This document shows positions 5,541 to 30,852 of a stretch of DNA of 34,242 bases, piece by piece. The translations under genes and the position numbers were made by a program. Below the pieces are notes generated by a model. That model had not been told where the DNA came from. It was given only the letters and a program-made list of their open reading frames with translations, and made no database searches. Origin of the DNA: a virus; the IMG/VR virus record IMGVR_UViG_3300036651_000511, positions 1 to 34,242 of that record. The stretch is one strand, 5' to 3'. How positions within the stretch are numbered: position 1 is the first letter of the stretch; each line of letters begins with the position of its first letter.

Positions 5541-6086
5541 TTACGAGGTTGCGTCTTCGATCGAGAAGGGGGCGATCGAGCTCGAGACGTAATGCCCGGC
5601 GAACTCGACCGGCCAGAAGAATTGACCATCCTTCTTGTACGAGGCTTCCACGTTGCCGATCTGGAGCCCCTTGCGGAGGATGATCCGGCGCTTGAAGCCA
5701 CCCGGCGCGATGCCGTCGAGCATGAGCGCCGCGTAGTTCGGGTTGAACACCGTGGCGCCGAAGCTCGGGGTGAACTTGCCGGTGACGACGGTGCCGGCGA
5801 GCTCGTTGAGCGCGATCGCGAGGTTCGCGAGCGTCGCCTCGGCGAGGTTCGTCTTGATCTTCGGCACGCGCTTGGTGAGGCGCTGGCCGGGGATGTCGAC
5901 GAGCTGATCGACGGCGAGTTCTGAGAACTCCATTTCGACCGAGAGCGTCACGCCGTCCTGCGTGCCGCCGACGTCGGTCCACCCGACGCCGGGCGCGGTG
6001 GCGACGGTTGCCGGCTCGGTAACACCGAAGATGCCAGCCCAGAGCACGGCGGGCCCCTGGATCAGGTTCGTGGTCACGACGGGCAT
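5541..6086 (-). CDS. Major tail (tube) protein
   Basis: A 181-residue protein with start MPVVTTNLIQGPAVLWAGIF and a strong GGAGGG ribosome binding site. Features include GVGWTDVGGTQDGVTLSVEM near residue 35, then a long helix-strand core and FNPNYAALMLDGIAPGG. This arrangement (N-terminal strand, WTDVG...DGVTLS motif, C-terminal KDGQFFWPVEF segment) is familiar from tail tube proteins of actinobacterial siphoviruses. It polymerises as hexameric rings around the tape measure. Position before the chaperones supports the call. A GC hairpin follows the stop, consistent with separate control of a highly expressed gene. Confidence 0.88.
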   Translation of the reverse strand: MPVVTTNLIQGPAVLWAGIFGVTEPATVATAPGVGWTDVGGTQDGVTLSVEMEFSELAVDQLVDIPGQRLTKRVPKIKTNLAEATLANLAIALNELAGTVVTGKFTPSFGATVFNPNYAALMLDGIAPGGFKRRIILRKGLQIGNVEASYKKDGQFFWPVEFAGHYVSSSIAPFSIEDATS

Positions 6087-17777: not shown

Positions 17778-18229
17778 CGTCCGATCCTTTCGAGTAGGGC
17801 GGTGACGCCCATTGGCTGGCCGGTGCGCGGAGTCACGCCCCGTTCGTACCATACGCACCCATCGGTGGCGGCGCGCCCTCGCACCCAGACGGCGCGGAAG
17901 CCATACCCGCGACGCACGTCGAGGCCCTGGACCTGGACGGCGGGCGCCTTCGTCTCGTTGCTCTTGCCGGCGTTCATCGTGTAGAAGCCGTGGAGGATCT
18001 TCACCTCGTAGTCGAGCGCCTCGGCCATGAGCCGAAGCTGCTGCGCCGACTTGGGCACCGGCCACCCGCCCGAGGGCACGCTCGGCTTCTCATGCTTGGC
18101 GACGAGCTTGCCGACGATGCGCTCGACGCGCTGCTCGCGCATCGCCTGGCGCGCGGCCTCGGCGCTCTCGGTCATCGTATGCGTGGGCGTCGGTGCGCCG
18201 AGCGTCGTGCCGAGGTAGGTGCGACTCAT
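17774..18229 (-). CDS. Protein of leftward leader operon, unknown function
   Basis: A 151-residue protein starting MSRTYLGTTLGAPTPTHTMT. A helical N-terminal half (AARQAMREQRVERIVGKLVA) is followed by a beta-rich half (DYEVKILHGFYTMNAGKSNE, GYGFRAVWVRGRAATDGCVW). Its ATG overlaps the stop of the 30-residue gene upstream, and its stop overlaps the next gene. I do not recognise a family. Confidence 0.65.
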   Translation of the reverse strand: MSRTYLGTTLGAPTPTHTMTESAEAARQAMREQRVERIVGKLVAKHEKPSVPSGGWPVPKSAQQLRLMAEALDYEVKILHGFYTMNAGKSNETKAPAVQVQGLDVRRGYGFRAVWVRGRAATDGCVWYERGVTPRTGQPMGVTALLERIGR

Positions 18230-18318
18230 GCGCCGGCCCACCCCTCGAGTCGTGCCTCGATCGCGTCGAGGTGATCGTCGTAGCCCTCGGGCTCTTCGGT
18301 CATGGCTGAATCGGTCAT
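18226..18318 (-). CDS. Leaderless mini-gene of 30 residues, first of the leftward block
   Basis: ATG at 18318 is only six bases after a TATGAT -10 box, so the transcript probably begins at the start codon. The peptide is acidic (MTDSAMTEEPEGYDDHLDAI, then EARLEGWAGA) and its stop overlaps the next start (ATGA). A second in-frame ATG at 18303 would suit a leadered mRNA. It may mainly couple translation to the next gene. Confidence 0.5.
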   Translation of the reverse strand: MTDSAMTEEPEGYDDHLDAIEARLEGWAGA

Positions 18319-18324
18319 CCCTCC

Positions 18325-18353
18325 ATCATACGCGACCCATTGGCCGACCACAA
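18325..18353 (-). promoter_or_regulatory. Leftward block promoter (PL) containing the 15-bp operator
   Basis: Minus-strand TTGTGG (18353-18348), 17-base spacer and TATGAT (18330-18325). The start codon at 18318 follows six bases after the -10. No other clear promoter is seen before the terminase genes, so this may drive the leader string and much of the structural block. Confidence 0.75.
18337..18351 (+). promoter_or_regulatory. Operator copy A, CCATTGGCCGACCAC
   Basis: Exact 15-base match to copy B at 27535-27549. It fills the spacer and overlaps the -35 of the leftward promoter. The TGGCCGACCA core is nearly palindromic. Confidence 0.75.
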
Positions 18354-18518
18354 GCGTTGCACTAAATCGACGGATCGGTCGAGATAAGCGACGAGGGCGA
18401 CCACTAATCTGCCGCGGAGCGCTCGCTAGGGGTCACTGCAAGGGGGTGCAAGGACCTTCCGTAAACATTGGTGCGTGCGCATGTGACATGAAGTGAGTAC
18501 AGGGAGGGGTTGCAGCCC
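18354..18518. other. Divergent intergenic regulatory region, possible replication origin
   Basis: This non-coding stretch separates the leftward and first rightward promoters. It contains an imperfect palindrome at 18367-18382 (TCGACGGATCGGTCGA), two TGCAAGG repeats ten bases apart (18437 and 18447), and relatively AT-richer sequence than its surroundings. Position between divergent blocks is typical for control regions or origins, but no iteron set is evident, so the origin idea is only inference. Confidence 0.4.
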
Positions 18519-18547
18519 TTGACTACTTGCACTACCTGAACTACCTT
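18519..18547 (+). promoter_or_regulatory. First rightward promoter (PR)
   Basis: TTGACT (18519-18524), 17-base spacer, TACCTT (18542-18547). The ATG at 18554 is six bases beyond the -10, giving a predicted leaderless mRNA. It lacks the 15-bp operator but overlaps three 9-bp direct repeats. Confidence 0.72.
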
Positions 18548-18548
18548 T
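18522..18548 (+). repeat. Three tandem 9-bp repeats (ACTACYTGM-like) over PR
   Basis: ACTACTTGC (18522), ACTACCTGA (18531) and ACTACCTTT (18540) follow each other without gaps from the -35 to the -10 box. Placement suggests a regulator binding array. Confidence 0.6.
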
Positions 18549-18553
18549 GACCC

Positions 18554-18856
18554 ATGACCTACGAACTCAAGCGCGAGGCGCCTCCATCCGCACCGATCGA
18601 CTGGGAGCGCATCGCCGCCGAGCTCCGCGATGAGCCGCTGACATGGTTCAAGCTCGACGCGTACCCCCCGAGCACCAAGCGCACACTGATCCGCAAGGGC
18701 CAGCCGTCCGCGTTCGCTCCCGCCGGCTCGTTCGACGCGACGATCGCCAAGGGCGCCCTCTACCTCCGATACCTCGGCGATCCCATCGAGCCGTGGTATC
18801 CGCACATGGGCGACGCGCGCGCCTTCGATGACCTCGAGCGCGAACTCCCCGCCTAA
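18554..18856 (+). CDS. First rightward gene, unknown function
   Basis: A 100-residue protein starting MTYELKREAPPSAPIDWERI, expected to be translated from a leaderless mRNA. The core has RDEPLTWFKLDAYPPSTKRT and SFDATIAKGALYLRYLGDPI. It is mixed alpha/beta and soluble. As the first gene of the rightward block it is likely expressed early and may act on host or phage regulation, but nothing in the sequence identifies it. Confidence 0.7.
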   Translation: MTYELKREAPPSAPIDWERIAAELRDEPLTWFKLDAYPPSTKRTLIRKGQPSAFAPAGSFDATIAKGALYLRYLGDPIEPWYPHMGDARAFDDLERELPA

Positions 18857-18857
18857 C

Positions 18858-18894
18858 CCATTGCCCCACCAATGCCCCGGCCATGTGCTACGCT
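18858..18894 (+). promoter_or_regulatory. Possible weak promoter with degenerate operator-like site
   Basis: CCATTGCCCCACCAA (18858-18872) matches 12 of 15 operator positions but breaks the palindromic core. TGCTACGCT (18886-18894) resembles an extended -10. Geometry differs from the four clear operator promoters, so this is tentative. Confidence 0.3.
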
Positions 18895-19034
18895 CGTCGT
18901 GACTCATGGCTGGGTCACCCACCCCGCCGCCTCGCGAGGCTCGCCCGATGATGTCGGGCATGATCGACACCGAGGCGGCGGGGCTCAACACTCCCAACCG
19001 TGAGCACACCCAGCCAAGAGAGAGGGTCTACGAC

Positions 19035-19442
19035 ATGACCACCCCCGAACCGCTCTACCTGAATCCCGGCGCCGATCGCGCCCGCGCCCTCGCTACCCTC
19101 GTGGCATCCGCCGCCCGCCTCCCTGGCGTGTGGGATGTCCAAGTGTTCATCGAGCACGGCAGTCGCTTCGACGGGGCGCGCATCGAGGCGCGAGCGACGG
19201 CGAGGATCAGCGCGGGCTGCGTGCTCGATGACAAGGCCGCGACAGGCGGCGCCGGCGAAGCTTCCATCTTGCAGGCGGTCGGCCTCGAACTCGGCCGGAT
19301 GATCCGCGAGGCTCATGACGCGATCACCCCCGAGCGCGCAGCCCTCGCCGCGATCATCGAGGCGAACGACCGGCCGAGCATGAACGGCTGGCAACACGAC
19401 GTCGATGCCGCGATCGAGGCCGCTCGCGAGGCGCTCCGATGA
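19035..19442 (+). CDS. Small Ala-rich protein, unknown function
   Basis: A 135-residue protein with ATG at 19035 preceded by GAGAGAGG at good spacing. An in-frame ATG at 18906 would add 43 Pro/Arg-rich residues and is less likely. Pattern: ARALATLVASAARLPGVWDV, then strand VFIEHGSRFDGARIEARATA, then helices. The C-terminal 25 residues (NGWQHDVDAAIEAAREALR) resemble the end of the next protein. Function unknown. Confidence 0.6.
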   Translation: MTTPEPLYLNPGADRARALATLVASAARLPGVWDVQVFIEHGSRFDGARIEARATARISAGCVLDDKAATGGAGEASILQAVGLELGRMIREAHDAITPERAALAAIIEANDRPSMNGWQHDVDAAIEAAREALR

Positions 19443-19984
19443 GCGGCTACAGGGTCGGCGACCGCGTGCGCCACAACTTCGGGGGCGGCTACCTCGTCAC
19501 GACGATCGCGCACGTCACCGCCCCGCAGCCGAGCGACCCGAGCTTCATCGTCTACGAGCTCGACATGCCGCAGAGTCGCGATGACTGCTTGCTCGTCACG
19601 GCCGCCGAACTCACCCCCGAACCGAAGACGACGCGGCCCGACGCGCACCTCTACACCGCCGCCGACTTCACGAGTGACTCGGAGTTCCGCAGGTGGCTCG
19701 CCGCCGCGCTCCGCGCCCAGGCGACCCGTGTTGAGCCGCTCTTCGCCCGCGACTCGCTCGCCGCCGGCGTGATGCTCGACGCCGCGCACTTCGTCGAGTC
19801 CACCGACGCCGCCGAACTCGACCGCATGCGCCGCCTTCACGAGGAGGCGACCGCGAACGCCGCCCGCTACCGCACCGCCCTCGAGGCGATCGAACTCGCC
19901 TATCCGGGCGGCATCGCCGAGCACGCACGTATGTACGACGCGCTCATCCGTATCGACGAACTCGCCCGAGAGGCACTCCGATGA
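19439..19984 (+). CDS. Protein with SH3/KOW-like N-terminus, unknown function
   Basis: A 181-residue protein whose ATG overlaps the previous stop (ATGA). Residues 1-55 (YRVGDRVRHNFGGGYLVTTI, then FIVYELDMPQ) look like a small beta-barrel. The rest is helical, with FRRWLAAALRAQATRVEPLF and LDRMRRLHEEATANAARYRT. The final residues IDELAREALR match the ending style of the preceding gene. No enzyme motif is seen. Confidence 0.62.
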   Translation: MSGYRVGDRVRHNFGGGYLVTTIAHVTAPQPSDPSFIVYELDMPQSRDDCLLVTAAELTPEPKTTRPDAHLYTAADFTSDSEFRRWLAAALRAQATRVEPLFARDSLAAGVMLDAAHFVESTDAAELDRMRRLHEEATANAARYRTALEAIELAYPGGIAEHARMYDALIRIDELAREALR

Positions 19985-20298
19985 GCGGCGACCGCCGATG
20001 CGGCGCCCCCTCGCCCTTCGCGACGTGGCCGCCCTGCCTCATGGCACTCGATCACGATGGGCGTGTCCACCGCTCGAATGGCCGATCGTGGATGCTCCCC
20101 GAGCACGGCGCCGACGCGAACGGTCTGGCCCCCGAGGGTATGACCAAGCGCGAGCTCGCCGAAGAGGTGGCCCGCCTGCGCGCAGTGCCCGAAGAGGTCG
20201 CCCGCCTGCGCGCCGCCCTCGAGGCGATCAAGCGCGAGAGCGAGCGCGGCCGATACCTCGACATCCCTGGCATGGTTGACGGGGCCCTCGGTGAGTAG
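19981..20298 (+). CDS. Small coiled-coil protein, unknown function
   Basis: A 105-residue protein starting at an ATGA overlap. The first 45 residues are Cys/Trp-containing and Pro-rich (CGAPSPFATWPPCLMALDHD). A heptad-like helix follows (TKRELAEEVARLRAVPEEVA, RLRAALEAIKRE). It overlaps the primase start by eight bases. It may be an accessory factor for the primase, judged only by adjacency. Confidence 0.6.
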   Translation: MSGDRRCGAPSPFATWPPCLMALDHDGRVHRSNGRSWMLPEHGADANGLAPEGMTKRELAEEVARLRAVPEEVARLRAALEAIKRESERGRYLDIPGMVDGALGE

Positions 20299-22786
20299 CC
20301 GCGGCATCCGGCTCCCCGCTCCGGAAGAGACGCTGCGCATCGCCCTCTCGCTCGCGCGTGCCGGCTGGCCGGTCTTCCCGGTCACGATCTACAAGGCGCC
20401 CGACGGCAAGCGCCACAAGGTGCCCGCCGTCCCCCGCGGCACGTCATGGGTCGACTGGGCAACGACGGATCCCGAGAAGATCGCGACGGCGTGGCAGGGC
20501 GAGCAGCACGGATGCTGGATCGGCGTGCACGCGGGCGCCGCGAACCTCGTCATCCTCGACACCGACAAGGTGCCCGACGACGGCGCGAAGTCCCTGAAGG
20601 CCGCGGGCCTCACCCCGCCGCCGACCTTCGACTACAAGACGCTCGGCGGCGGCCGTCACCGCCTCTACGCCGCGCCGAGGGGCATCGCCCTCACGAATGC
20701 GCAGGGCCTCATGTACCAGGGCGCCCGGTTGAAGGGCTGCGACGTGCGCGGCGGCAACGGGCTCATGGTCTACTACGGGCCCGAGCTCACCGCGAAGCCG
20801 AAGCTCGCCCCCGCCCCCGACTGGCTGCTCGTGCCGGCGACGCCGAAGAGCGCCGACCGTGCCCCGTCCGCCGACGAGGCCGCCTTCCGCGATCGGCTCG
20901 TCGGTGGCAAGCCCTCGAAGCCGGTGCGCAAGGTGCTCGAGCGCGTCAAGCCGAAGGGTATGAGCCACGACGACATGCTTGGCGCGATCACCGACCTCGT
21001 GCGCCTTGGCGCCGAGGGCGCGCCAGGCGTTGCCACCGCGCTCGATGTCGCCCGCGAGACATACTCGGCCGACTGGGCCGACGCGGGCCGGCACTGGGAT
21101 AACGCCCTCGCCGGATCGATCAAGCGCATCGGCCTGCCGCCCGTCACGCTCGCCGTGACCAAGGCCGAGCGCAAGGTGATCGCCGAGCGCAACGACCCAA
21201 AAGCGATCGAGGTGCGCAAGGTCGAACGGCGCGCCGCGATCGTCGTGCAGAAGATCATCACGGGCGCCGATCAGATCACCGACGCTGCCCTCGCTGAACT
21301 CCTCGCCGACGAGCTCGGCGAGACGTGGGCGAACGTGCCCGGCATCGGCCTCATGCGCTACGACGGCACGGTCTGGAAGCCTGCCGAGGAGGCGACGCTC
21401 GCCGAGCGGGTGCGCCGTCGCCTGCGCACGATCCGCGCCGACGTGACGAAGGCCGCGATCCTCCGCGGCGACGCGCGCACCGAGGCCGAGGCCAAGGCGC
21501 TCGAGTCCCGCACCCGGATCATGGCGACGGCACGCCTGATCGCCGGTATCCTGCTCGACGCGCCGCCGACCCTCGACGCCGACCCTGACGTCTTGAACGT
21601 GCGCAACGGCGTCGTCGACCTGCGCACGGGCGAACTCCGCGAGCGTCGCGCCGCCGACTACTTCACCCGCGTCGCGGCGGCCGAGTATCACCCGGGCGCG
21701 CGCTCGGCGTCGTGGGAGAAGGCACTCCGCGCCCTCCCGAAGTCGACGCGGGCATGGCTCAAGGTGCGGCTCGGCCAGGCGACGACGGGGCGCATCTCGC
21801 GCGACAAGTCCATCCCCTTCTGCGTCGGCGGCGGCGACAACGGCAAGTCCGCCGTGCTCGGCGGCGTCCGCAAGGCGCTCGGCGAGTACGCCGTGACCGT
21901 GCCCGAGCGGCTTCTGCTCGGCTCGGACAACGACCACCCGACCGACATCATGACGTTGCAAGGTGCGCGCCTCGCGATCTTCGAGGAGCTCCCCCGCGGC
22001 GGCCGGCTCAACGCCCAGCGAATCAAGCTGCTCGCCGGGACGAACGTGCTGAGCGGGCGGCGCATGCGTCAGGACTTCGTCACCTTCCCCGCGACGCACA
22101 CCCTCGTCGGCGCGACGAATCACCTTCCCGTCATCGTCGATGTCGACGATGCGATCTGGGAGCGCGTCGCGCCGGTGCCGTTCCCGTTCAAGTTCGTCGC
22201 CCCGTATCGGCCTGCGACCGATGACGACGCCGGCACGCCGGGTCCGAAGCCGGGCACGAATCAGCGTGACGGCGACTCAGAGTTGCGTGACCGGCTCGCC
22301 GAGGGGCACCCCGAGGATGCCGCCGCGATGCTCGCATGGCTCGTCGAGGGCGCGGTCGAGAGCTATCGCGAGGTGCCCGCGAAGCCGAAGCATGTTCGCG
22401 AGGCGCTCGACGAATGGCGCGGCGAGGCCGACCCCGTGCTCGGCTTCTTCCGCGATCACCTCGTCGCCGACCCCGCCGGCGTCATCGCGGCGAGTGACCT
22501 CTATTCGGAGTTCGGCCGCTACCTCGAGAGCCGCGGCCAGCAACGGTGGAGCGATCAACTCATCGCCACGTCGTTCACCGGACACTCGAGCATGGAAGGC
22601 GTCTCGAAGCGGCAGATGCTGCTCGGCGGCGGCACGATCCCGAGCCGCCCGCCGTTCACGCTCAAGCCCCTCCCGGCGCGCGCCGTCGTCTGGCGCGGCA
22701 TCCGCTTCGCCGAGGAGTCCGGCCGGGTGCCGATGAGTCCCGACGTCGCCGAAGCCGAGAGCATGGAAGCGAGGTTCCGAGGATGA
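20291..22786 (+). CDS. Bifunctional primase-polymerase / SF3 helicase (D5-like)
   Basis: An 831-residue replication protein with GTG at 20291 inside the preceding stop (GTGAGTAG). A TTG at 20276 is a less likely start. The N-terminal prim-pol domain shows LVILDTDK (Asp90, Asp92) and GGGRHRLYAAPRG (His123). A D5_N-like region (DPDVLNVRNGVVDLRTGEL) precedes the P4-type superfamily 3 helicase: Walker A GGGDNGKS near 513-520, acidic ARLAIFEEL near 560, and THTLVGATNHLP as sensor motif. A C-terminal winged-helix-like part ends the protein. It should unwind and prime phage DNA. No phage polymerase is present, so host polymerase is likely used. Confidence 0.92.
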   Translation: MSSRGIRLPAPEETLRIALSLARAGWPVFPVTIYKAPDGKRHKVPAVPRGTSWVDWATTDPEKIATAWQGEQHGCWIGVHAGAANLVILDTDKVPDDGAKSLKAAGLTPPPTFDYKTLGGGRHRLYAAPRGIALTNAQGLMYQGARLKGCDVRGGNGLMVYYGPELTAKPKLAPAPDWLLVPATPKSADRAPSADEAAFRDRLVGGKPSKPVRKVLERVKPKGMSHDDMLGAITDLVRLGAEGAPGVATALDVARETYSADWADAGRHWDNALAGSIKRIGLPPVTLAVTKAERKVIAERNDPKAIEVRKVERRAAIVVQKIITGADQITDAALAELLADELGETWANVPGIGLMRYDGTVWKPAEEATLAERVRRRLRTIRADVTKAAILRGDARTEAEAKALESRTRIMATARLIAGILLDAPPTLDADPDVLNVRNGVVDLRTGELRERRAADYFTRVAAAEYHPGARSASWEKALRALPKSTRAWLKVRLGQATTGRISRDKSIPFCVGGGDNGKSAVLGGVRKALGEYAVTVPERLLLGSDNDHPTDIMTLQGARLAIFEELPRGGRLNAQRIKLLAGTNVLSGRRMRQDFVTFPATHTLVGATNHLPVIVDVDDAIWERVAPVPFPFKFVAPYRPATDDDAGTPGPKPGTNQRDGDSELRDRLAEGHPEDAAAMLAWLVEGAVESYREVPAKPKHVREALDEWRGEADPVLGFFRDHLVADPAGVIAASDLYSEFGRYLESRGQQRWSDQLIATSFTGHSSMEGVSKRQMLLGGGTIPSRPPFTLKPLPARAVVWRGIRFAEESGRVPMSPDVAEAESMEARFRG

Positions 22787-22890
22787 ACCCAGGATTCCCG
22801 ACCGAGGGCACCGCGTGCCGCGCCGGCCATCACGAGCTCTGCGCGCTGCTCGGATGCCCGTGCGCGTGCCACGCGCCGCCCGCGGCATAG
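22783..22890 (+). CDS. Cysteine-rich mini-protein of 35 residues
   Basis: ATG at 22783 overlaps the primase stop (ATGA). Six potential metal ligands are packed in ACRAGHHELCALLGCPCACH. Similar tiny Cys/His peptides occur in actinophages, perhaps as zinc knuckles. It ends three bases before a strong terminator. Expression is supported by overlap and context only. Confidence 0.55.
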   Translation: MNPGFPTEGTACRAGHHELCALLGCPCACHAPPAA

Positions 22891-22892
22891 CA

Positions 22893-22935
22893 GAAGGCCC
22901 CCGATTCTCCGCTCGTCAGCGGATCGGGGGCCTTC
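22893..22935. terminator. Strong bidirectional terminator between converging genes
   Basis: GAAGGCCCCCGAT (22893-22905) pairs perfectly with 22923-22935. An inner CCGCT/AGCGG stem caps it with a four-base loop. It lies between the rightward primase operon and the leftward ribbon-helix-helix gene, whose stops converge here. Confidence 0.88.
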
Positions 22936-22944
22936 GGTGTGCGC

Positions 22945-23190
22945 TCAGCCCTCGGCGCGTTCGCCGCGAAGGTCGTTCCACGAGTTCAGGCCGGCGGTGA
23001 GCAGCGTTCGGCCTACCTCGCTCTTCGAGAGCCGCAACTCGGCGGCGATGCGGGCGACATCCTCGAAGAGGATGTCGTCGACCATGAGCACGAGCTGCCG
23101 CGGGTAGAGGGTCGGCCGCGGCGCGCCGCCCTTGACGGCGGCCCCGCTCGGCTTGCGCTTGGGCTTGGGGGTTGCGTTGTCGTCAGTCAT
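22945..23190 (-). CDS. Ribbon-helix-helix DNA-binding protein, candidate phage regulator
   Basis: An 81-residue protein with ATG at 23190, seven bases after its -10 box. A basic Pro-rich N-tail (about 1-25) leads to a ribbon-helix-helix core: strand RQLVLMV at 31-37, helix DILFEDVARIAAELR at about 39-53, turn LSKSE at 54-58, then helix VGRTLLTAGLNSW. Arc/MetJ/CopG-like proteins bind short palindromic operators as dimers and often repress their own genes. It is the only leftward gene within the rightward block, and its promoter holds one copy of the repeated operator. An unrelated DNA-binding role cannot be excluded. Confidence 0.75.
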   Translation of the reverse strand: MTDDNATPKPKRKPSGAAVKGGAPRPTLYPRQLVLMVDDILFEDVARIAAELRLSKSEVGRTLLTAGLNSWNDLRGERAEG

Positions 23191-23197
23191 GAGTGCT

Positions 23198-23227
23198 ACG
23201 ATACAGTGGTCAGCCAATGACCCGCAA
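23198..23227 (-). promoter_or_regulatory. Promoter of the ribbon-helix-helix gene with operator in the spacer
   Basis: Minus-strand TTGCGG (23227-23222), 18-base spacer, TATCGT (23203-23198). The start codon follows after seven bases. A weaker plus-strand promoter (TACGAT at 23197-23202 with TTGCGT upstream at 19-base spacing) overlaps it and could serve the rightward gene at 23258. Confidence 0.68.
23206..23220 (-). promoter_or_regulatory. Operator copy D, TCATTGGCTGACCAC
   Basis: Matches the copy A/B sequence at 13 of 15 positions, on the minus strand, entirely between the -35 and -10 boxes of the regulator promoter. This fits autoregulation. Confidence 0.7.
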
Positions 23228-23257
23228 CTCTTGCGGGCACCCCGAAGGGATCCAGCC

Positions 23258-23596
23258 ATGACCGTCAAGACCGCCCCCGCCCGCTACGTAATCGAGGTGA
23301 GCGGCGCCGAGCTCGACGTCGTGCGCCTCGCCCTCGGCCGCATGGTCGAGCCGAAGCCGACGCGCGCGCCCCGCCGCACCTCGACCCCCCGCCGCTACGT
23401 GCCGAAGCCGCCGCGCCTCACCCCGACGCGCTTCGCCGACGTGAGTTGCCGATGGGAGCGAGCGTGCGCCGACCCGGCGCGGTGGCGCGTCGAGCTTGCC
23501 GACGGCGTCGCGGCGGGCGGGCGCATGGGCGCTGGCTACACCCACGCGAGCGACGTGTTCCGCGCATGGGGCCTCGACGAGGTGACCGGGCTGTGA
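23258..23596 (+). CDS. Small basic protein before the methyltransferases, unknown function
   Basis: A 112-residue protein with ATG at 23258 and GAAGGGA upstream. Residues 1-30 (ARYVIEVSGAELDVVRLALG) form a strand-helix unit. The middle is a Pro/Arg-rich linker, and the C-terminal part has CRWERACADPARWRVELADG. The GTG of the cytosine methyltransferase overlaps its stop, so it may be coexpressed with the modification genes. I do not recognise a family. Confidence 0.6.
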   Translation: MTVKTAPARYVIEVSGAELDVVRLALGRMVEPKPTRAPRRTSTPRRYVPKPPRLTPTRFADVSCRWERACADPARWRVELADGVAAGGRMGAGYTHASDVFRAWGLDEVTGL

Positions 23597-24702
23597 GCGC
23601 CCCGCTCGAAGACGACATCGTTGCCCTCGACCTCTTCGCGGGCACAGGCTGGGGCGTGGCCTGCCACCGCCTCGGCATCGAGGAGCACGGCGTGGAACTC
23701 ATGCCCGAGGCCGTCGCGACGCGCGAGGCGGCAGGCATGCGCACCGCGTACCGCGATGTCTGGGCGGGACTCAAGGCCCCCGGCCTCGCACCGCTGCACG
23801 ACCTCCTCATCGCGTCGCCGCCGTGCCAGACCTTCAGCATGGCGGGCGGCGGCGCCGGACGGCGCGCGCTCGACGACGTGCTCGAAGCGATCCGCGAGCG
23901 CGCCTACCTCGACCCCGCGAAGCTCCGCGCGTTCGGCGAGAAGCACGACCCGCGCACCGCGCTCGTGCTCACCCCGCTCGCGCACGCCGCCCGCGACCTC
24001 CCCCGCCTGGTCGTCTTCGAGCAGGTGCCGACCGTGCTCCCCGTGTGGGAAGCGTGCGCCGAGGTCATGCGCGAGTGGGGCTACTCGGTCGTGACGGGCA
24101 ATCTTCAGGCTGAGATGTACGGCGTGCCGCAGACGCGCAAGCGCGCGATCCTCGTCGCGCGTTGGGACGGTGAGGCGCGGATGCCGACGCCGACGCACTC
24201 GCGCTACTACCCCCGCGACCCGAAGCGGCTTGACGAGGGCGTGCTCCCGTGGGTGAGCATGGCCGACGCGCTCGGCTGGGGCATGACCGAACGCCCCTTC
24301 TTCACGGTGTCGGGCGGCGCGAACGACGGTTCGCCTGGCGGCCATACGGGCGGGCAAGATCCGGCCATGCTCGGCGGCTCGGCGGCACGGGCGAAACTCA
24401 ACGCCGAGCGCGAGGCGGGCCGGTGGCTCGATGCACTCGATATCTGGTCGAGCCGCCCCGCCACAACCGTCGCCGCCGACGACCGGATCGGCGGCCCTGG
24501 CCGAAGCGAGTTCGTCAAGGGCGGCGTCTCGCGCCAGGATCGGAAAGGCACGATCCGAGTAAGCCCGGTCGAGGCCGCGCTCTTGCAGAGCTACCCCGCC
24601 GACTTCCCCTTCGCGGGCGGCATCGGGAAGGTGTCGCTTCAGATCGGAAACGCCGTGCCGCCGCTGCTCGCCGAGGCGATCCTGCGCGAGGTGATCCGAT
24701 GA
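23593..24702 (+). CDS. DNA (cytosine-5) methyltransferase
   Basis: A 369-residue protein starting with GTG in a GTGA overlap. Motif I LDLFAGTGWG (12-21) binds AdoMet. Motif IV is ASPPCQTFSMAGG with catalytic Cys78. Motif VI reads VFEQVP near 141-146, a variant of the usual ENV. Motif VIII is QTRKRAILVA near 180, and motif X is QIGNAVPP near 353. The target recognition region lies between VIII and IX. It transfers methyl groups to cytosine C5 in a specific site. No matching restriction enzyme is encoded, so it likely protects phage DNA from host restriction. The next methyltransferase overlaps by four bases. Confidence 0.92.
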   Translation: MSAPLEDDIVALDLFAGTGWGVACHRLGIEEHGVELMPEAVATREAAGMRTAYRDVWAGLKAPGLAPLHDLLIASPPCQTFSMAGGGAGRRALDDVLEAIRERAYLDPAKLRAFGEKHDPRTALVLTPLAHAARDLPRLVVFEQVPTVLPVWEACAEVMREWGYSVVTGNLQAEMYGVPQTRKRAILVARWDGEARMPTPTHSRYYPRDPKRLDEGVLPWVSMADALGWGMTERPFFTVSGGANDGSPGGHTGGQDPAMLGGSAARAKLNAEREAGRWLDALDIWSSRPATTVAADDRIGGPGRSEFVKGGVSRQDRKGTIRVSPVEAALLQSYPADFPFAGGIGKVSLQIGNAVPPLLAEAILREVIR

Positions 24703-25916
24703 GCCCGCTCCCGCCGCTGCTCTTGCGCGGCGACTGCATGGTCGAGCTCGCCCGCATCCCCGACGCCTCGGTCGACGCGATCGTCACCGACCCGCCCTAC
24801 GGCATCGACTTCATGGGCAAGGATTGGGATAAGGCCGTCAAGCTCGCGGCCGGCATGATCGGCCAGCTTGCCACGGGCGGCAAGAGTGACCGCGGCCCGC
24901 TCGCGAAGGGCGGCACGCATTCCCAGGGGTACAAGAATCACGACGGCCTCGCCTTCGAGTTGTGGGTGACGCGGTGGGCGACCGAGTGCATGCGCATCCT
25001 CAAGCCGGGCGGGCACCTGCTCGCGTTCGGCGGCTCGCGCACCTGGCACCGCCTCGCCGCCGGCATCGAAGACGCGGGCTTCGAGGTGCGCGACTCGATC
25101 GCATGGCTGTACGGCAGTGGCTTCCCGAAGTCGCTCGACGTCTCGAAGGCGATCGACAAGGCCGCGGGCGCGACGCGCGAAGTCGTTGGGCCTGGCGGCA
25201 AGTCGGGGACAGTTCGATCAAGCATGGCGGGCGACTTTGCGGGGTCGTGGGACACGACCGCGCCGACCACCGACGCCGCGCGCGAGTGGCAAGGCTGGGG
25301 GACCGCGCTCAAGCCCGCCTTCGAGCCGATCGTCGTCGCGCGCAAGCCGCTCAGCGAGAAGACGGTCGCGGCCAACGTGCTCGCGCACGGCACCGGCGCG
25401 CTCAACATCGACGCGACGCGCATCGAAACGGAGGATTCCCTGCTCGGCGGGCGCTCGACCTCGGGCGCAGTGAAGGCGAGTCACGATGGCTGGAATCGTC
25501 CATTCATGGATGACGCCGAGCACGTCGAAGCGATCCGTGACGCTGCGCGTGATCGCCAAGGGAAAGCGTCAGGCCGCTGGCCGGCGAACGTCATCCTCGA
25601 CGAGAGCCAGGCCGCCGCGCTCGACGAGCAGAGCGGCGCGTCGCGCTTCTTCTACGTCGCGAAGGCGCCGAAGAGCGAACGTCCGGTGACGCCTGACGGC
25701 GTTGCGCACCCGACCGTCAAGCCGCTCGCGCTCATGCGCTACCTCGTGCGCCTGGTCACCCCGCCGGGCGGATGCGTCGTCGACCCGTTCGCCGGCTCAG
25801 GCACGACGCTCGAAGCCGCCTACCTCGAGGGCTTCGAGTCGATCGGCGTTGAGTTGACGCCGGACTACTGGCCGTTGATCGAGGCGCGGATCGAGCGAGT
25901 TTCGCGTGGGGCTTGA
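24699..25916 (+). CDS. DNA adenine-N6 / cytosine-N4 methyltransferase (beta class)
   Basis: A 405-residue protein. The catalytic motif TDPPYG at 30-35 comes first, and the AdoMet motif VDPFAGSGTTLEAA near 361-374 is at the C-terminus, which is the beta-class order. The N-terminal LLRGDCMVELARIPDASVDA and HPTVKPLALMRYLVRL before the FxGxG motif are also typical. The middle region (about 100-330) is long and probably includes target recognition. DPPY favours N6-adenine, but N4-cytosine cannot be ruled out. Paired with the C5 enzyme it would give two different modifications. Confidence 0.92.
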   Translation: MSPLPPLLLRGDCMVELARIPDASVDAIVTDPPYGIDFMGKDWDKAVKLAAGMIGQLATGGKSDRGPLAKGGTHSQGYKNHDGLAFELWVTRWATECMRILKPGGHLLAFGGSRTWHRLAAGIEDAGFEVRDSIAWLYGSGFPKSLDVSKAIDKAAGATREVVGPGGKSGTVRSSMAGDFAGSWDTTAPTTDAAREWQGWGTALKPAFEPIVVARKPLSEKTVAANVLAHGTGALNIDATRIETEDSLLGGRSTSGAVKASHDGWNRPFMDDAEHVEAIRDAARDRQGKASGRWPANVILDESQAAALDEQSGASRFFYVAKAPKSERPVTPDGVAHPTVKPLALMRYLVRLVTPPGGCVVDPFAGSGTTLEAAYLEGFESIGVELTPDYWPLIEARIERVSRGA

Positions 25917-25942
25917 CGTGAGCCATTGGTCGGCCATAGACT
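25913..25942 (+). promoter_or_regulatory. Rightward promoter C with operator in the spacer
   Basis: TTGACG (25913-25918), 18-base spacer and TAGACT (25937-25942). ATG at 25949 follows after six bases, so a leaderless transcript is expected. The -35 overlaps the end of the methyltransferase gene. Confidence 0.78.
25923..25937 (+). promoter_or_regulatory. Operator copy C, CCATTGGTCGGCCAT
   Basis: Matches copies A and B at 12 of 15 positions; two of the changes, C to T and A to G, lie in the palindromic core and swap its half-sites, so palindromy is retained. It fills the promoter spacer. Confidence 0.72.
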
Positions 25943-25948
25943 GACGTT

Positions 25949-26161
25949 ATGACCAACAAGCAGAGCACCAAGACTCACCCGAAGTTCGGCACCAAGGCCG
26001 AGGCCACCGTCGACATGGGCCGCCAGATCCTCGCAGGCCTCGAAGCGGGTAACTACACCTCGACGGTTCGCGCCTCGCTCCCGATGTTCGTGGGCATGGT
26101 CGCGAAGCACGACGCCGACCTCGCCGACCGTCTCGCCGCATGGGTCGAGGCCGCCGCGTGA
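25949..26161 (+). CDS. Small helical protein under operator control, unknown function
   Basis: A 70-residue protein starting MTNKQSTKTHPKFGTKAEAT at a leaderless-type start. The rest is predicted helical (VDMGRQILAGLEAGNYTSTV, then MFVGMVAKHDADLADRLAAW). It has no cysteines, membrane segment or DNA-binding motif that I can identify. As the first gene after an operator-bearing promoter it is probably tightly regulated. Confidence 0.68.
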   Translation: MTNKQSTKTHPKFGTKAEATVDMGRQILAGLEAGNYTSTVRASLPMFVGMVAKHDADLADRLAAWVEAAA

Positions 26162-26280
26162 AGGTTCGCAGCACGTTCCCAGTGCCACCCCCGAAGCCGA
26201 TGTCGGCGCACGTCGCTAGACTTCAGCCCTCGCCCCCGCTCGTATGGAAGGAAGAAGACTATGAAGAAGAAGATCAGTGA
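26158..26280 (+). CDS. Possible 40-residue overlapping gene
   Basis: GTG at 26158 overlaps the preceding stop (GTGA) and the frame continues to 26280, with a Pro-rich middle (VPPPKPMSAHVARLQPSPPL) and acidic end WKEEDYEEEDQ. It overlaps the start of the next gene by 20 bases. The acidic end is read from a purine-rich ribosome binding site, so it may be an artefact. Weakly supported. Confidence 0.3.
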   Translation: MKVRSTFPVPPPKPMSAHVARLQPSPPLVWKEEDYEEEDQ

Positions 26281-26725
26281 CCGCCTTGTCGGCGGCTTCA
26301 TCGCGCTCGCCGTGCTCGGGGGCGCGACCGCCGCGACGGTCGGCATCGCCTCGGCGGTGCCCGAGCCTGCCTCGGTGACCGAGACGAGTACCCCGCTCAC
26401 CGTCCCGAGCGACGCGCCGAACGGGCTGGCCGCCGAGCAGGAAGCCGAAGCCGCCGCGGTCGAGGCCGCGCGCGTCGCCGCCGGGCAGGCCGCCGCGGCG
26501 GAAGCCGCGCGCCTCGCCGCCGAAGCCGCCGCCGCTGCTCAGGCCGAGGCTGACCGGATCGCCGCCGAGCAGGCCGCCCTCGAGGCCGAGAGCTTCGAGG
26601 AGAGCGAGCCCGAGGTCGTCGACCCCGAGCCGGTGCCCGAGTTCAGCGGCCCGACACCGGGCACCGCCGTTCACACAATCTGCCAGGTGCTCGAAGACGG
26701 CACGCAAGTTCCCTGCGCGCTCTGA
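26261..26725 (+). CDS. Putative secreted or envelope coiled-coil protein
   Basis: A 154-residue protein with a classic signal sequence: MKKKISDR, hydrophobic VGGFIALAVLGGATAATVGI and an ASA site near 30-32. After a Thr/Pro linker, residues about 56-115 form an Ala/Glu-rich coiled coil. An acidic Pro-rich linker (EPEVVDPEPVPEFSG) ends in a small tail with Cys141 and Cys152, perhaps a disulfide. It would act outside the membrane, or stay anchored if the signal is uncut. Superinfection exclusion is a possible role in this early context, but this is only inference. GGAAGGAAG precedes the ATG. Confidence 0.7.
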   Translation: MKKKISDRLVGGFIALAVLGGATAATVGIASAVPEPASVTETSTPLTVPSDAPNGLAAEQEAEAAAVEAARVAAGQAAAAEAARLAAEAAAAAQAEADRIAAEQAALEAESFEESEPEVVDPEPVPEFSGPTPGTAVHTICQVLEDGTQVPCAL

Positions 26726-26754
26726 TCCACCGACCCGAGAAGGATGACCCAGCC

Positions 26755-27384
26755 ATGAGCAAGACCCGATGGGCGCACGTCACCAAGGGCGACCGCGTCG
26801 AGCTCGGCGGCAAGCCGTGGACGGTGACGCGCGCGAAGGCCAAGGGCAAGAGCGTCAAGATCACCGTGACCGACGGCAAGCGAGAAGCCTCGAGCGAGGT
26901 GCGCGCCGCCGATAAGGTGAAGCTCGTGAAGGCCGAGCCGCTGCGCCGGCCCGCGATGGGCGGCAGTCAGCAAGCGCGATGGGCGACCGAGCGCGAGCGC
27001 GAGAAGCGCGACGCGAAGGCCGCGGCGAACCTCGCCCCGATCCGCCGCGGCGACCCGTCGCTCACCTCGCCGCCCGAGGCGCCAGGCGACGACGCGTGGA
27101 CGACGCCGCGAGGCAAGGCCGAGAAGGTCTTCGAGCGCGTGCTCGGTGCGCGCCTGGTCGGCGAGGCGACCGACGTCGACAAGGGCTACTATGTGCCTCC
27201 GGTCGACGTCACGACGGTCGCCTCGCATATGGCGCTGTTCCACCCGAACGCCTACGACGCGATGAAGGATGAGCCGACGATGCTGCGCTCGCACACCGAG
27301 TTGCACAAGGCGGTGGACAAGGGCGAGATGCGCCTCGACCTCAACCACTGGCACACCGAGACGCGGCCGAAGGTGGGTGCGTGA
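26755..27384 (+). CDS. Protein with KOW-like N-terminus, unknown function
   Basis: A 209-residue protein starting MSKTRWAHVTKGDRVELGGK with a leader ending in ACCCAGCC and GAAGGA upstream. Residues 5-65 are beta-rich and basic (WTVTRAKAKGKSVKITVTDG). A charged linker follows (ATEREREKRDAKAAAN). The C-terminal half contains VDVTTVASHMALFHPNAYDA and SHTELHKAVDKGEMRLDLNH, with several His residues. A nucleic-acid-binding role is plausible for the N-terminus. No catalytic set is recognised. Confidence 0.65.
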   Translation: MSKTRWAHVTKGDRVELGGKPWTVTRAKAKGKSVKITVTDGKREASSEVRAADKVKLVKAEPLRRPAMGGSQQARWATEREREKRDAKAAANLAPIRRGDPSLTSPPEAPGDDAWTTPRGKAEKVFERVLGARLVGEATDVDKGYYVPPVDVTTVASHMALFHPNAYDAMKDEPTMLRSHTELHKAVDKGEMRLDLNHWHTETRPKVGA

Positions 27385-27530
27385 TGTTCCGACACACCGG
27401 CGCCGACGCCCCCGAGGGCTCGCTCGCGCACTCGGGCTACATGCTCTATCTCGCCGAGTTGCGGCTTCACATCGCGCTCCGCAAGGCGATCCTCTTGCCG
27501 CTCGCGCATTGGCTCGACCGCTTCGCTTGA
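27384..27530 (+). CDS. Small amphipathic protein of 48 residues
   Basis: ATG at 27384 overlaps the preceding stop (TGATG), with GGTGGG upstream. The sequence MFRHTGADAPEGSLAHSGYM is followed by a long amphipathic helix (LYLAELRLHIALRKAILLPL, AHWLDRFA). Its stop codon lies within the -35 box of the next promoter. It may be membrane-associated. Function unknown. Confidence 0.55.
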   Translation: MFRHTGADAPEGSLAHSGYMLYLAELRLHIALRKAILLPLAHWLDRFA

Positions 27531-27555
27531 CAAGCCATTGGCCGACCACTAGGGT
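27527..27555 (+). promoter_or_regulatory. Rightward promoter B with operator in the spacer
   Basis: A consensus TTGACA (27527-27532), 17-base spacer and TAGGGT (27550-27555). Unlike the other operator promoters it has a leader of about 28 bases with AAGGAG before the ATG at 27590. It likely drives the recombination genes. Confidence 0.78.
27535..27549 (+). promoter_or_regulatory. Operator copy B, CCATTGGCCGACCAC
   Basis: Identical to copy A over 15 bases and placed exactly in the spacer of promoter B, ending at the -10 box. Confidence 0.78.
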
Positions 27556-27589: not shown

Positions 27590-27796
27590 ATGACCCCCGA
27601 AGAGCGAGCCCGCCTCGACCAGGAGGCCGCATGGCTGGCCGAGTGGACTGCCGCAAGGGCCAACCTCCACAAGGTCATGGCGGCGCACCTCCGCGCACGC
27701 CGCATCAAGGAGAGAGTCCGCGGCTGGCTCGGAGCCCTCGCGATCGTCGCGGTCATCGCCGGCGCGTCGTGGGTCGTCGATACCCTCATCCCCTGA
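27590..27796 (+). CDS. Small membrane protein with C-terminal anchor
   Basis: A 68-residue protein starting MTPEERARLDQEAAWLAEWT after AAGGAG. A charged amphipathic helix covers about 1-45, and one transmembrane segment (GWLGALAIVAVIAGASWVVD) ends the protein. It is encoded under an operator promoter ahead of the nuclease gene, far from the lysis genes, so it is probably not a holin. It might act on host membrane functions, which is inference only. Confidence 0.65.
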   Translation: MTPEERARLDQEAAWLAEWTAARANLHKVMAAHLRARRIKERVRGWLGALAIVAVIAGASWVVDTLIP

Positions 27797-27835
27797 TCCA
27801 GCACCGCAACAACACAACCCCCGAAGGGATACACC

Positions 27836-29449
27836 GTGAGCAAGAAGAAGAAGGCCGAGCCGAAGCTCAGCAAGGCCGAGCGCAAGGCGCTCGAGCAGCG
27901 CGCCGCCGAACTCGCCGCCGAACTCGCGCGCCGCGAGAAGAAGGCCGCGAAGAAGAAGGGCAAGAAGGCCGAGCCCGAGCAACCCGCGAAGAAGGGCAAG
28001 GCCGCGAAGCTCGCCGACGACAACGCCGCGGCGCTGCTCGACGTCGCGGCCCGCGCCGCCGAGCGCAAGGCGAAGAGCCCGAAGTACGAGACGGCCGACG
28101 CCGCACGCAAGGTGCTCGCCGACGAGAATGCGGCACCCGCCGCGAAGGTCGCCGCCGAGACGGCACGCGACGCCGCGGCCGAGGCGAGCGACGAGGAGAC
28201 GGACGAGCAGATCCGCGCCCGCGTCCTCGCCAAGCGTGCGGCCCGCGCCGCCGCCGAGACGGGCGTGACCTCCACCCCCGAGGGGCTCGAGGCGATCATC
28301 GACCCGACGCCCGAGAAGATCGAGAAGGCGATCGAAGCCGTGAAGGCCGCGAAGGCCGCCGTCCAGGCGGTCACCGAAGTGCAGACCGAGCAGGGTCGCG
28401 AGTTCGTCGCCGGCGTCGAGAGCATCACGAAGTTCAAGGCCGCCGCCGAGCCCTTCGCCCTCCCGAGCGAGGCGCCGCGCACCGACTTCGAGGAGAACGG
28501 CAACCACCAATACAAGGTCAAGCGGCCGAGCGACGGCAAGACCATCGGCTACACGCGAGCCACGACCTACATCGCGAACCTCGAAGACACCTCGGCACTG
28601 ACGAAGTGGAAGATGCGGATGCTCCTCGAGGGCGTCGCGATCAACGACACCGACGGCCAGGCGGGGCGCGAGACGCTTCCCGACCCCGTCGTCTCGAAGG
28701 TGCGTGACCTGATCCACACCCGCGATGTCGCACTCGCGAAGGCGCACAAGGCCGACCGTAAGGGCAAGCTCGTCACGGGCCAACTCGCGACGATCGTTGA
28801 CGGCGCGTGGAGTGACTTCAAGCGGGCGCTCAACGCGCTCGCCGAGGAGCTCCTCGAGCTCGGCGGCGTGCACGAGAAGGCGCAGAAGGGCACCGACCTC
28901 CACGCGCTCTGCGAACTCTACGACCGTGAGGGCATCGACGCCGTGGGCGACCTCCTCACCGAAGGGAAGATCACGCCGGCCGACCTCGCCGACGTCGAGG
29001 CCTACGCCGACGCGGTGCGCCGGGCCGGGATCAAGTTCGATCTCATCGAGCAGACGGTCGTGAACGACGAGCTCAAGGTCGGCGGCCGACTCGACCGCAC
29101 CGCGCTCGTCAAGCTCCCCGGCATGGCGCGCTCGACGCGCGTCGTCGCCGATATCAAGACGGGGCGCATCGACCTCGGCGCCGGAAAGATCGCCCAGCAG
29201 CTCGAGATGTATGCCTCGTCGCAGGCATACGACCTCGACACCGACGAGCGCATCGACATGAAGCTCAGCCGTACCAAGGCGATCCTCATTCACCTCCCCG
29301 CGGGGACGGCGACGTGCACCGTTCACGTCGTCGACCTCGTGCTCGGCCGCAAGGGCAACGCGCTCAGCGGCCAGGTTCGCGCATGGCGCAACGAGGGCAA
29401 GAAGGCGATCGACACGTCGGTCGACCTCGCCGCCCCGGAGGGGGTCTAG
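27836..29449 (+). CDS. Cas4/RecB-like PD-(D/E)XK nuclease with long basic N-terminal extension
   Basis: A 537-residue protein starting with GTG after CCGAAGGGA. The C-terminal part holds the nuclease: GTDLHALCE (His356), IEQTVV (Glu405), VGGRLDRTALV (Asp420), VVADIKTGR (Asp439, Lys441) and IAQQLEMYA (Gln455). This is the RecB/Cas4 motif order. Residues 1-200 form a Lys/Ala/Glu-rich low-complexity helix, longer than usual for such phage exonucleases. It likely processes DNA ends for recombination or replication, perhaps with the next protein. No Cys cluster for an iron-sulfur centre is visible, so Cas4-like means the nuclease fold only. Confidence 0.85.
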   Translation: MSKKKKAEPKLSKAERKALEQRAAELAAELARREKKAAKKKGKKAEPEQPAKKGKAAKLADDNAAALLDVAARAAERKAKSPKYETADAARKVLADENAAPAAKVAAETARDAAAEASDEETDEQIRARVLAKRAARAAAETGVTSTPEGLEAIIDPTPEKIEKAIEAVKAAKAAVQAVTEVQTEQGREFVAGVESITKFKAAAEPFALPSEAPRTDFEENGNHQYKVKRPSDGKTIGYTRATTYIANLEDTSALTKWKMRMLLEGVAINDTDGQAGRETLPDPVVSKVRDLIHTRDVALAKAHKADRKGKLVTGQLATIVDGAWSDFKRALNALAEELLELGGVHEKAQKGTDLHALCELYDREGIDAVGDLLTEGKITPADLADVEAYADAVRRAGIKFDLIEQTVVNDELKVGGRLDRTALVKLPGMARSTRVVADIKTGRIDLGAGKIAQQLEMYASSQAYDLDTDERIDMKLSRTKAILIHLPAGTATCTVHVVDLVLGRKGNALSGQVRAWRNEGKKAIDTSVDLAAPEGV

Positions 29450-29571: not shown

Positions 29572-30072
29572 ATGGCGAAGGACAAGAGCAAGCCCAGCAA
29601 GAGCACGAACGACGAGTTCGCGAAGCCGAGCGAGGCGCCCGCGGGCGGCGACGGGTGGAAGCTCGCAACGCCCAAGCATGTCGGCGACCTGTTCCTCGTG
29701 ACCCCGCTGCGCGAGCAGACGGTGAAGGGCTTCGAGGACTCCGACGCCGAGGTGATCGTCGCCGACGTCGTGCACCTCAACGAGAAGAAGCCCGAGAAGA
29801 GCGAGGAGCACGAAGAGGTGTTCATCTTCGGCGCGTGGCTGAAGGGGTCGCTCCGCGGCTTCATCGGCGAGCGCAAGGTGCTCGCCCGCCTCGACCAGGA
29901 CAAGAGCAAGGGTCGCGGCAACAATGCGGCATGGGTGTTCGAAGACGCCGACGCCGACGACATCGCCGTCGCGAAGGCGTACCTCGCGAGCGTCGACCCG
30001 TTCGCCCAGAAGTCGAGCAAGAAGGCCGACGACAAGCCGAGCAAGGGCGGCAAGAAGGCCAAGGGGAAGTAG
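29572..30072 (+). CDS. Putative ssDNA-binding or recombination accessory protein
   Basis: A 166-residue protein starting MAKDKSKPSKSTNDEFAKPS after GAAAGGCC. The core (HVGDLFLVTPLREQTVKGFE, AEVIVADVVHLNE, VFIFGAWLKGSLRGFIGERK, VLARLDQDK) is beta-rich and resembles an OB-like family that actinophages often encode beside their exonuclease. The C-terminal 25 residues are strongly basic (KKADDKPSKGGKKAKGK), unlike the acidic tip of standard bacterial SSB. The ssDNA-binding call is inferred from pattern and neighbour genes. Confidence 0.55.
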   Translation: MAKDKSKPSKSTNDEFAKPSEAPAGGDGWKLATPKHVGDLFLVTPLREQTVKGFEDSDAEVIVADVVHLNEKKPEKSEEHEEVFIFGAWLKGSLRGFIGERKVLARLDQDKSKGRGNNAAWVFEDADADDIAVAKAYLASVDPFAQKSSKKADDKPSKGGKKAKGK

Positions 30073-30165: not shown

Positions 30166-30852
30166 ATGAACCTCTACACCGAAGGCGAGTTCGACCCCGT
30201 GCTCGCGCAGAAGGAACTCGGCGCCGCCGCCGGCGTGACGAGTGACACCGTCGCCCGGCGCGACATCGCCCGGATCCAGGCCGCCGCGCTCATCGACATC
30301 GCCGGATCCCTCAAGGTGCTCTCGCTCGAGGCACTGCTCGCGATGGGCCAACTCGACGAGCCGGGCGGATACGACGACGACACCGAGGCCGACGGCTTCG
30401 ACGAGCCGCTCGACCTCACCCGTGCCGACGCCGGAACGCTCGTGCGCATCATCCGCGAACCGGCCGCGTACGGCGTGCTCACCGGCGAAGGCGGCGTCGA
30501 CCAGGGCGAGCCGTGGGTCGGCGTCAACTGGGAGAGCACCGGACTCGAGACGCCGCTCGGCACGCGCGTCTTCGTGACCGAACTCGAGGCGATCCCCACC
30601 GACGAGGTGCCGCCGATCCCCGGCGCGCCGCTCGGTGCGATCGTCGAACTCGAAGACGGCACCGTCCTCGGCGACGGCGTCACGCCGCCGACGCTCCCCG
30701 AGTACGTGCCGCCGGCCGTCGCCGACCTCGCGGAAGACCTCGATGACGACTTCGACGGCGACGAGCACAAGGCCGCCGAGGATGCCCTCGCCGCGCTGAA
30801 GGCTCGCGAGGCCGAGCGCAAGGCCGCGAAGAAGAAGGCGGCCAAGAAGTGA
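30166..30852 (+). CDS. Acidic protein with basic tail, unknown function
   Basis: A 228-residue protein with ATG at 30166 after GAAAGGA. The N-terminus has MNLYTEGEFDPVLAQKELGA and a helical TVARRDIARIQAAALIDIAG. A beta-rich acidic middle (PWVGVNWESTGLETPLGTRV, IVELEDGTVLGDGVTPPTLP) follows, and the last 25 residues are basic (AERKAAKKKAAKK). The next gene overlaps it by four bases. No family is recognised; the DNA-associated neighbours and basic tail suggest nucleic acid contact. Confidence 0.62.
   Translation: MNLYTEGEFDPVLAQKELGAAAGVTSDTVARRDIARIQAAALIDIAGSLKVLSLEALLAMGQLDEPGGYDDDTEADGFDEPLDLTRADAGTLVRIIREPAAYGVLTGEGGVDQGEPWVGVNWESTGLETPLGTRVFVTELEAIPTDEVPPIPGAPLGAIVELEDGTVLGDGVTPPTLPEYVPPAVADLAEDLDDDFDGDEHKAAEDALAALKAREAERKAAKKKAAKK

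Follow-up and report, generated by a model that had tools for sequence, protein, structure and literature searches.

Near-palindromic sites in the promoters of a phage genome are probably operators of the phage's own Arc/CopG-type autorepressor, which would block the access of RNA polymerase to sigma-A-type promoters that serve accessory genes and the leftward structural block. The sites were found in IMG/VR record IMGVR_UViG_3300036651_000511, positions 1 to 34,242, and this whole stretch of 34,242 nucleotides is referred to as the window. It has a coding fraction of 93%, and its source appears to be a small actinobacterial phage that does not integrate. The proposed repressor is a ribbon-helix-helix protein encoded at 22945-23190. 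Comparison of the genome sequences indicates that related phages keep the layout of this system while the operator sequence and the lineage-specific genes under its control change.

The window was compared with a group of phages that have the primase and other early genes in common with it. The relative G001 (IMG/VR 3300042934_000462, also L007; 35,275 bp) was reached via a promoter-pattern search. The exact pattern TTGAC-N3-6-CATTGGYYGRCCA gave 41 loci in IMG/VR, nearly all of them coding or chance matches in unrelated phages, and G001 was the sole true relative among them. It is colinear with the window, and the main aligned blocks have about 70-76% DNA identity. The other members of the group are G002 (35,171 bp), G003-G006, L157, and the Microbacterium phages OscarSo, Isperia, and Wyvern (32-34 kb) and FuzzBuster and SM23 (about 55 kb). 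A further contig, G009, carries the site at 18337, but it looks like a fragment of the same phage and so provides no independent evidence.

Operator sites and their promoters

The four principal sites share a sequence that is rare in the window and confined to intergenic promoter regions. CATTGGYYGRCCA is present at all four with zero mismatches. As the initial annotation had reported, CCATTGGCCGACCAC occurs exactly at 18337-18351 and 27535-27549, and variants are found at 23206-23220 on the minus strand (TCATTGGCTGACCAC) and at 25923-25937 (CCATTGGTCGGCCAT). Gene boundaries were taken from independent codon-usage gene calls, and these agree that all four sites are intergenic. The core TGGYYGRCCA is found at only four places in the window (seven strand-wise matches), while the chance expectation in the shuffled window is 0.47 and none of 100 shuffles attained the observed count. 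The element had been described as near-palindromic; the sites are near-symmetric in the window, and the homologous site at the ribbon-helix-helix promoter of G001, TATTGGTTGACCAATG, is a near-perfect palindrome. The operators, with the evidence for each, are as follows.

18337..18351, plus strand: operator at the promoter of the leftward structural block (sequence, matrix scan)
23206..23220, minus strand: operator at the ribbon-helix-helix gene's own promoter (sequence, core count, matrix scan, homologous palindrome in G001)
25923..25937, plus strand: operator at the promoter of orphan gene 25949-26161 (sequence, matrix scan; counterpart at G001rc 5677-5692)
27535..27549, plus strand: operator at the promoter of orphan gene 27590-27796 (sequence, matrix scan; counterpart at G001rc 7938-7953)
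18859..18874, plus strand: fifth, weaker candidate operator, the palindrome CATTGCCCCACCAATG, upstream of the plus-strand orphan gene 18948-19442 (rank five with a matrix from G001 only; without a clear -35 box)

Matrix scans single out the same places. A symmetric held-out matrix was built from five G001 sites alone, and its top five hits in the window were, in order, 27536, 23204, 18338, 25924, and 18859. All five are non-coding, and the hits below rank five are coding and weaker. The four sites score 18.5-22.0 bits, while the best coding matches reach 14.3 and 10.3 bits. A scan of this kind had been proposed in the initial annotation; its top window hits are non-coding, and no coding match is as good. 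With a matrix from the window, the homologous promoters of G001 rank first, second, and third, and all three are non-coding. A joint matrix applied to G002 gave seven top sites that are all non-coding, although the G002 operators differ. Conservation in relatives had been suggested as a second check, and G001 keeps sites at the ribbon-helix-helix promoter and at the promoters matching those at 25923 and 27535 in the window.

The targets named in the initial annotation were the leftward block, the ribbon-helix-helix gene, and two rightward units, and promoter boxes and first genes were identified for each. The claim that every site lies inside the spacer between a -35 and a -10 box 17-18 bp apart stands for three of the four. 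The site at 18337 is inverted relative to its own promoter, and its core overlaps the -35 hexamer at 18348-18353. This overlap was absent from the initial annotation, as were the turnover of the operator between lineages and the mostly lineage-specific nature of the target genes, both described below. The promoters and the genes behind them are listed here.

18325..18353, minus strand: leftward promoter, TTGTGG (18348-18353) - 17 bp - TATGAT (18325-18330), first gene 18226-18318 (sequence)
23198..23227, minus strand: repressor-gene promoter, TTGCGG (23222-23227) - 18 bp - TATCGT (23198-23203) (sequence)
25913..25942, plus strand: promoter, TTGACG (25913-25918) - 18 bp - TAGACT (25937-25942) (promoter scan)
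27527..27555, plus strand: promoter, TTGACA (27527-27532) - 17 bp - TAGGGT (27550-27555) (sequence)
18226..18318, minus strand: first small gene of the leftward block, with a homologue only in G001
22945..23190, minus strand: gene for an 81-residue ribbon-helix-helix protein, the proposed repressor (AlphaFold2 model, Foldseek, PHROG matches of family members)
25949..26161, plus strand: orphan 70-residue gene behind an operator promoter, without a homologue in 12 related phages and without a Pfam match
27590..27796, plus strand: 68-residue orphan with an operator promoter, followed by the exonuclease gene 27836-29449 (homologue and Pfam searches)

The operator promoters of the window resemble host sigma-A-type promoters. 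A simple promoter scan recovers the 25913 promoter alone because it requires a 9-of-12 match. The distance from the -10 box to the start codon is 7 nucleotides at the repressor gene and 6-7 nucleotides across the repressor gene and 25949 promoters, so the transcripts of these two genes are probably leaderless.

Other elements accompany the promoters and start codons. The sequence CGTCAGC(ATCC) is kept about 10-15 nucleotides 3' of the -10 box, in the first transcribed bases, in several operator promoters (L075, L076, L072-L074, and G002 23556 and 25290). A start-associated motif, ACCCCCGAAGGGA (CCCCGAAAGGTCAGC in relatives), precedes many start codons and is present in several, mainly non-coding, copies per genome; examples are window 23240-23257, 27810-27835, and similar places, L071, L072-L074, and L183-L184. 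Where the two gene blocks diverge (window 18318-18554; G001rc 20-180 and 35171-35275), there are repeats such as GTGCAAGG and a conserved CTTCCGTAAAC that is also present in G002. These repeats are possibly an origin or the sites of another regulator.

The ribbon-helix-helix protein and its operators in related phages

Structure prediction indicates that the 22945-23190 product has the ribbon-helix-helix (MetJ/Arc) fold. The AlphaFold2 model has helices at residues 39-52 and 56-80 following an extended strand region, and blocks over residues 41-70 have predicted local distance difference test values of 94-97. The model is a monomer, so the paired beta-ribbon cannot appear in it. Foldseek matches are mostly ribbon-helix-helix proteins, with CopG-DNA first and AmrZ, Arc, NikR, and ParD among those that follow; the best has an E value of 0.28 and a probability of 0.90, and none reaches E<0.001, which is usual for a domain of 45 residues. 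Four of the 13 family members match PHROG 3431, 'Arc-like repressor' (best E value 1e-4). A sequence search of Protein Data Bank chains with the repressor gave nothing convincing, and the six-row repressor alignment was too variable to query the phage collection. The initial annotation had proposed this protein as the binder of the sites. Its fold, together with the operator-like element in its own promoter in nearly every relative, is consistent with that role.

The gene is monocistronic, with no neighbour on its strand from 22786 to 23258, and is divergent to the gene at 23258 and convergent to the primase gene. A ribbon-helix-helix antitoxin was considered and rejected, as there is no partner gene in the operon. 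Partition sites were rejected as well, since no ParA was found and the sites are not arrayed. Searches for a tyrosine integrase, a serine recombinase, and a ParA-type ATPase in the window and G001-G006 found none, with the limit that some of these records may be incomplete, and no integrase or partition genes are annotated in OscarSo, Isperia, or Wyvern. A repressor of lysogeny is therefore unlikely.

The layout is conserved among the relatives. The ribbon-helix-helix gene is present at the corresponding locus, directed away from the neighbouring early genes, in G001-G006, L157, OscarSo, Isperia, Wyvern, FuzzBuster, and SM23. An operator-like element is found in its own promoter in the window, in G001-G006, and in the five isolates, and is weakest in OscarSo, G004, and G006. 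Most relatives carry further copies of the element at other promoters. The GenBank entries for Isperia, Wyvern, and SM23 lack an annotation of the ribbon-helix-helix gene (L073:27854-28279, L074:29003-29416, and L075:15618-15827, all plus strand).

The operator sequence differs between lineages. It is CATTGG-N4-CCAMTA in the window and G001, TAGTKG-N4-CNACTA in G002, AGTAGCCGACTACT in Isperia, and TCACCTANTAGGTGA in FuzzBuster and SM23, and G003, G005, and G006 have other sequences again. When 16-mers that recur in non-coding but not in coding DNA were searched for without bias, the operator ranked in the top three for the window, G001, G002, Isperia, SM23, FuzzBuster, G003, G005, and G006, and outside the top three for OscarSo, Wyvern, G004, and L157. 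A generic repeat search in the isolates was swamped by codon-bias repeats. When the operator of each repressor promoter was scanned on all genomes, enrichment was found mostly in its own genome and close kin. The ratios of non-coding to coding sites were 7:1 in G002 and 5:0 in G003, and SM23 and FuzzBuster had eight sites each; enrichment was weak for OscarSo, Isperia, Wyvern, G004, and G006.

Genes behind operator promoters are mostly lineage-specific. With the repressor excluded, 27 of the 35 first genes behind such promoters have no homologue in 12 other phages, compared with 123 of 553 other genes (odds ratio 11.8, and 7.1 among genes of 200 residues or fewer). A more sensitive search against length-matched genes of the same phage found 25 orphans among the 35 where 11.5 were expected, a number attained in none of 20,000 draws. 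Among small genes heading a unit, 22 of 32 with an operator are orphans compared with 31 of 145 without one. Exact P values are rough for these comparisons, because promoters in the relatives were listed by visual inspection, a small number of gene calls are uncertain, and sister phages do not count as independent samples. A location behind an operator promoter thus predicts that a gene is lineage-specific, to a degree that gene size does not account for, and this provides a handle on orphan genes.

Several other features of the window were noted. Two adjacent DNA methyltransferase genes (23593-24702 and 24699-25916) lie between the repressor gene and the operator at 25923, and G001 lacks them there. 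An endolysin-like gene (11135-11923, PHROG 7698) is found within the head-gene block and is annotated likewise in OscarSo, Isperia, and Wyvern. A minor tail gene is apparently split across the window ends, 1 and 34242, and is a single gene in G001 (reversed record 14901-16055), suggesting that the record is a probably near-complete, circularly permuted genome. An Rfam search of the window found zero families.

Proposed mechanism and alternative explanations

The arrangement of the sites suggests repression by occlusion. A ribbon-helix-helix dimer, or a pair of dimers, would insert its beta-ribbon at the pseudo-palindrome in or next to the spacer of the host sigma-A-type promoters, and the bound protein would keep RNA polymerase off. 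On entry, and so presumably early, the promoters would be free, and the small accessory genes, the repressor, and the leftward block would be transcribed. Accumulating repressor would then turn all of the operator promoters down together. As its own promoter carries an operator, the repressor would also limit its own level.

Evidence that operator specificity follows the repressor is mixed. In Mantel tests on 12 phages, operator distance is correlated with repressor distance (r 0.34, p 0.005), also when primase distance is held constant (r 0.28, p 0.02). The same ribbon, YPRQLV(L/I)M, and the same half-site, TTGG, are found in the window, G001, and G004; the G004 repressor promoter has TTGG-N4-CCAA, although the primase of this phage is only 45% identical. 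A number of observations weigh against the autorepressor. Operator distance is more strongly correlated with primase distance (r 0.70) than with repressor distance, and the distance of the beta-ribbon alone is not significantly correlated with it (p 0.13). The window protein by itself has no Pfam or PHROG match, and only five of the 13 family members match Pfam RHH_1, weakly (best E value 0.0017, 18.7 bits against a cut-off of 20.5). In L157 no operator was recognised, the ribbon-helix-helix promoter included, and G004 has only two or three sites. Finally, the poor -35 box of the promoter at 18337 leaves room for activation there. Operator specificity partly tracks the repressor, and phage phylogeny accounts for more of the variation; for this reason no strict co-evolution of repressor and operator is claimed.

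A second role at the 18337 promoter is an unlikely alternative that overlaps the autorepressor and differs from it at one promoter. The protein would repress the accessory promoters and its own, and would activate, or delay and then release, the leftward structural promoter as an early-to-late switch. The leftward -35 box (TTGTGG) is weak and is overlapped by an operator whose position and orientation are unlike those of the other sites, and AmrZ, a ribbon-helix-helix protein, is both an activator and a repressor (PMC3325190). However, the G002 counterpart of this site abuts the -10 box as in the other operator promoters of that phage, and the G001 counterpart is degenerate.

It is quite improbable that a different phage-encoded DNA-binding protein reads the sites and that the ribbon-helix-helix gene is merely one of its targets. 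The closer agreement of operator divergence with phylogeny would fit such a protein, and candidates exist: the early proteins 26755-27384 and 29572-30072 are conserved in all relatives, and the early protein 30166-30849 has a weak helix-turn-helix match (Pfam HTH_Crp_2, E value 0.005, below the cut-off). However, in the window the promoters of these genes lack an operator, 30166-30849 has homologues in only three of 12 relatives, and the depositor annotation of OscarSo names no other DNA-binding regulator. The ribbon-helix-helix gene, on the other hand, retains its locus and operator nearly throughout.

It is very improbable that the conserved spacer is due to a transcription factor of the host or to a promoter-strength element that the host RNA polymerase reads. 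The element does adjoin the -10 box of promoters that resemble those of host sigma-A, but it is palindromic, and the promoter-like TTGACT-17-TACCTT ahead of 18554 in the window lacks it. Isperia, OscarSo, and FuzzBuster have the host genus Microbacterium in common and have different operators, those of FuzzBuster and Isperia being unrelated, and this argues for a phage-encoded binder. Recent copying of one promoter cassette, with a spacer common by descent and read by no protein, can be dismissed with slightly more assurance still: two window copies are identical over 15 bp and the cassettes stand before differing genes, but beyond the palindrome the copies differ, one of them runs opposite to its promoter, and a symmetric element is retained at homologous places in G001 and G002 despite 27-46% primase divergence.

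A broader idea is offered tentatively. In this actinophage lineage the autorepressor and its operator may form a portable 'early-accessory' label, such that any gene placed behind it enters a common programme of a pulse followed by shut-off. The cargo would be exchanged rapidly, and each lineage would set the specificity of the repressor-operator pair anew. In that case the cargo would probably be anti-host or anti-defence genes, and searching for operators would reveal counter-defence genes that are still unknown, much as regulatory sequences have done for archaeal viruses.

Comparison with known systems

The proposed autorepressor gives a concrete model of gene control in a group of Microbacterium phages, and this model can be tested. 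A literature search, with subscription papers outside its scope, found no paper describing such a circuit or regulation in these phages. The Arc operator of phage P22 is located between the -35 and -10 boxes of Pant. Like the protein described here, Arc is a small ribbon-helix-helix protein of a phage and has an operator in the promoter of its own gene, and both Arc and CopG are among the Foldseek matches. However, Arc acts at essentially one promoter region in a temperate phage, whereas here there are four to seven promoters, no integrase was found, and the operator differs between relatives.

Aca (anti-CRISPR-associated) repressors are small autoregulators in which an inverted repeat inside a strong core promoter blocks RNA polymerase (PMC9410906). 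The proposed autoregulator is likewise small and has an inverted repeat in its core promoter. The tested Aca proteins have helix-turn-helix domains and are encoded in operons with acr genes (PMC9410906), while the ribbon-helix-helix gene stands alone. No known acr gene was recognised in the window, where no dedicated anti-CRISPR library was used.

The archaeal virus SIRV2 with Aca8 is similar in its targets. A virus-specific regulatory sequence is common to many small, poorly conserved early genes and the regulator's own gene, differs between viruses, and marks anti-defence genes (PMC11065993). The sites described here are also common to poorly conserved small genes and the regulator gene and vary between phages. 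In SIRV2, however, the promoters are of the archaeal TATA/BRE (B recognition element) type, the regulator is a winged-helix protein, and early timing was measured, while here it is inferred.

Cluster A mycobacteriophages such as L5 and Bxb1 have phage-wide stoperators with a consensus that changes, along with the repressor, from one subcluster to another (PMC6550527). Stoperators are 20-30 asymmetric sites that lie mostly outside promoters and belong to a lysogeny system, in contrast to the four to five near-palindromic sites at promoters in the window, where no integrase or ParA was found. Both systems have phage-wide binding sites with a consensus that varies between lineages. The presence of one layout with several operator sequences makes these phages a natural series for studying how ribbon-helix-helix proteins change their DNA specificity.

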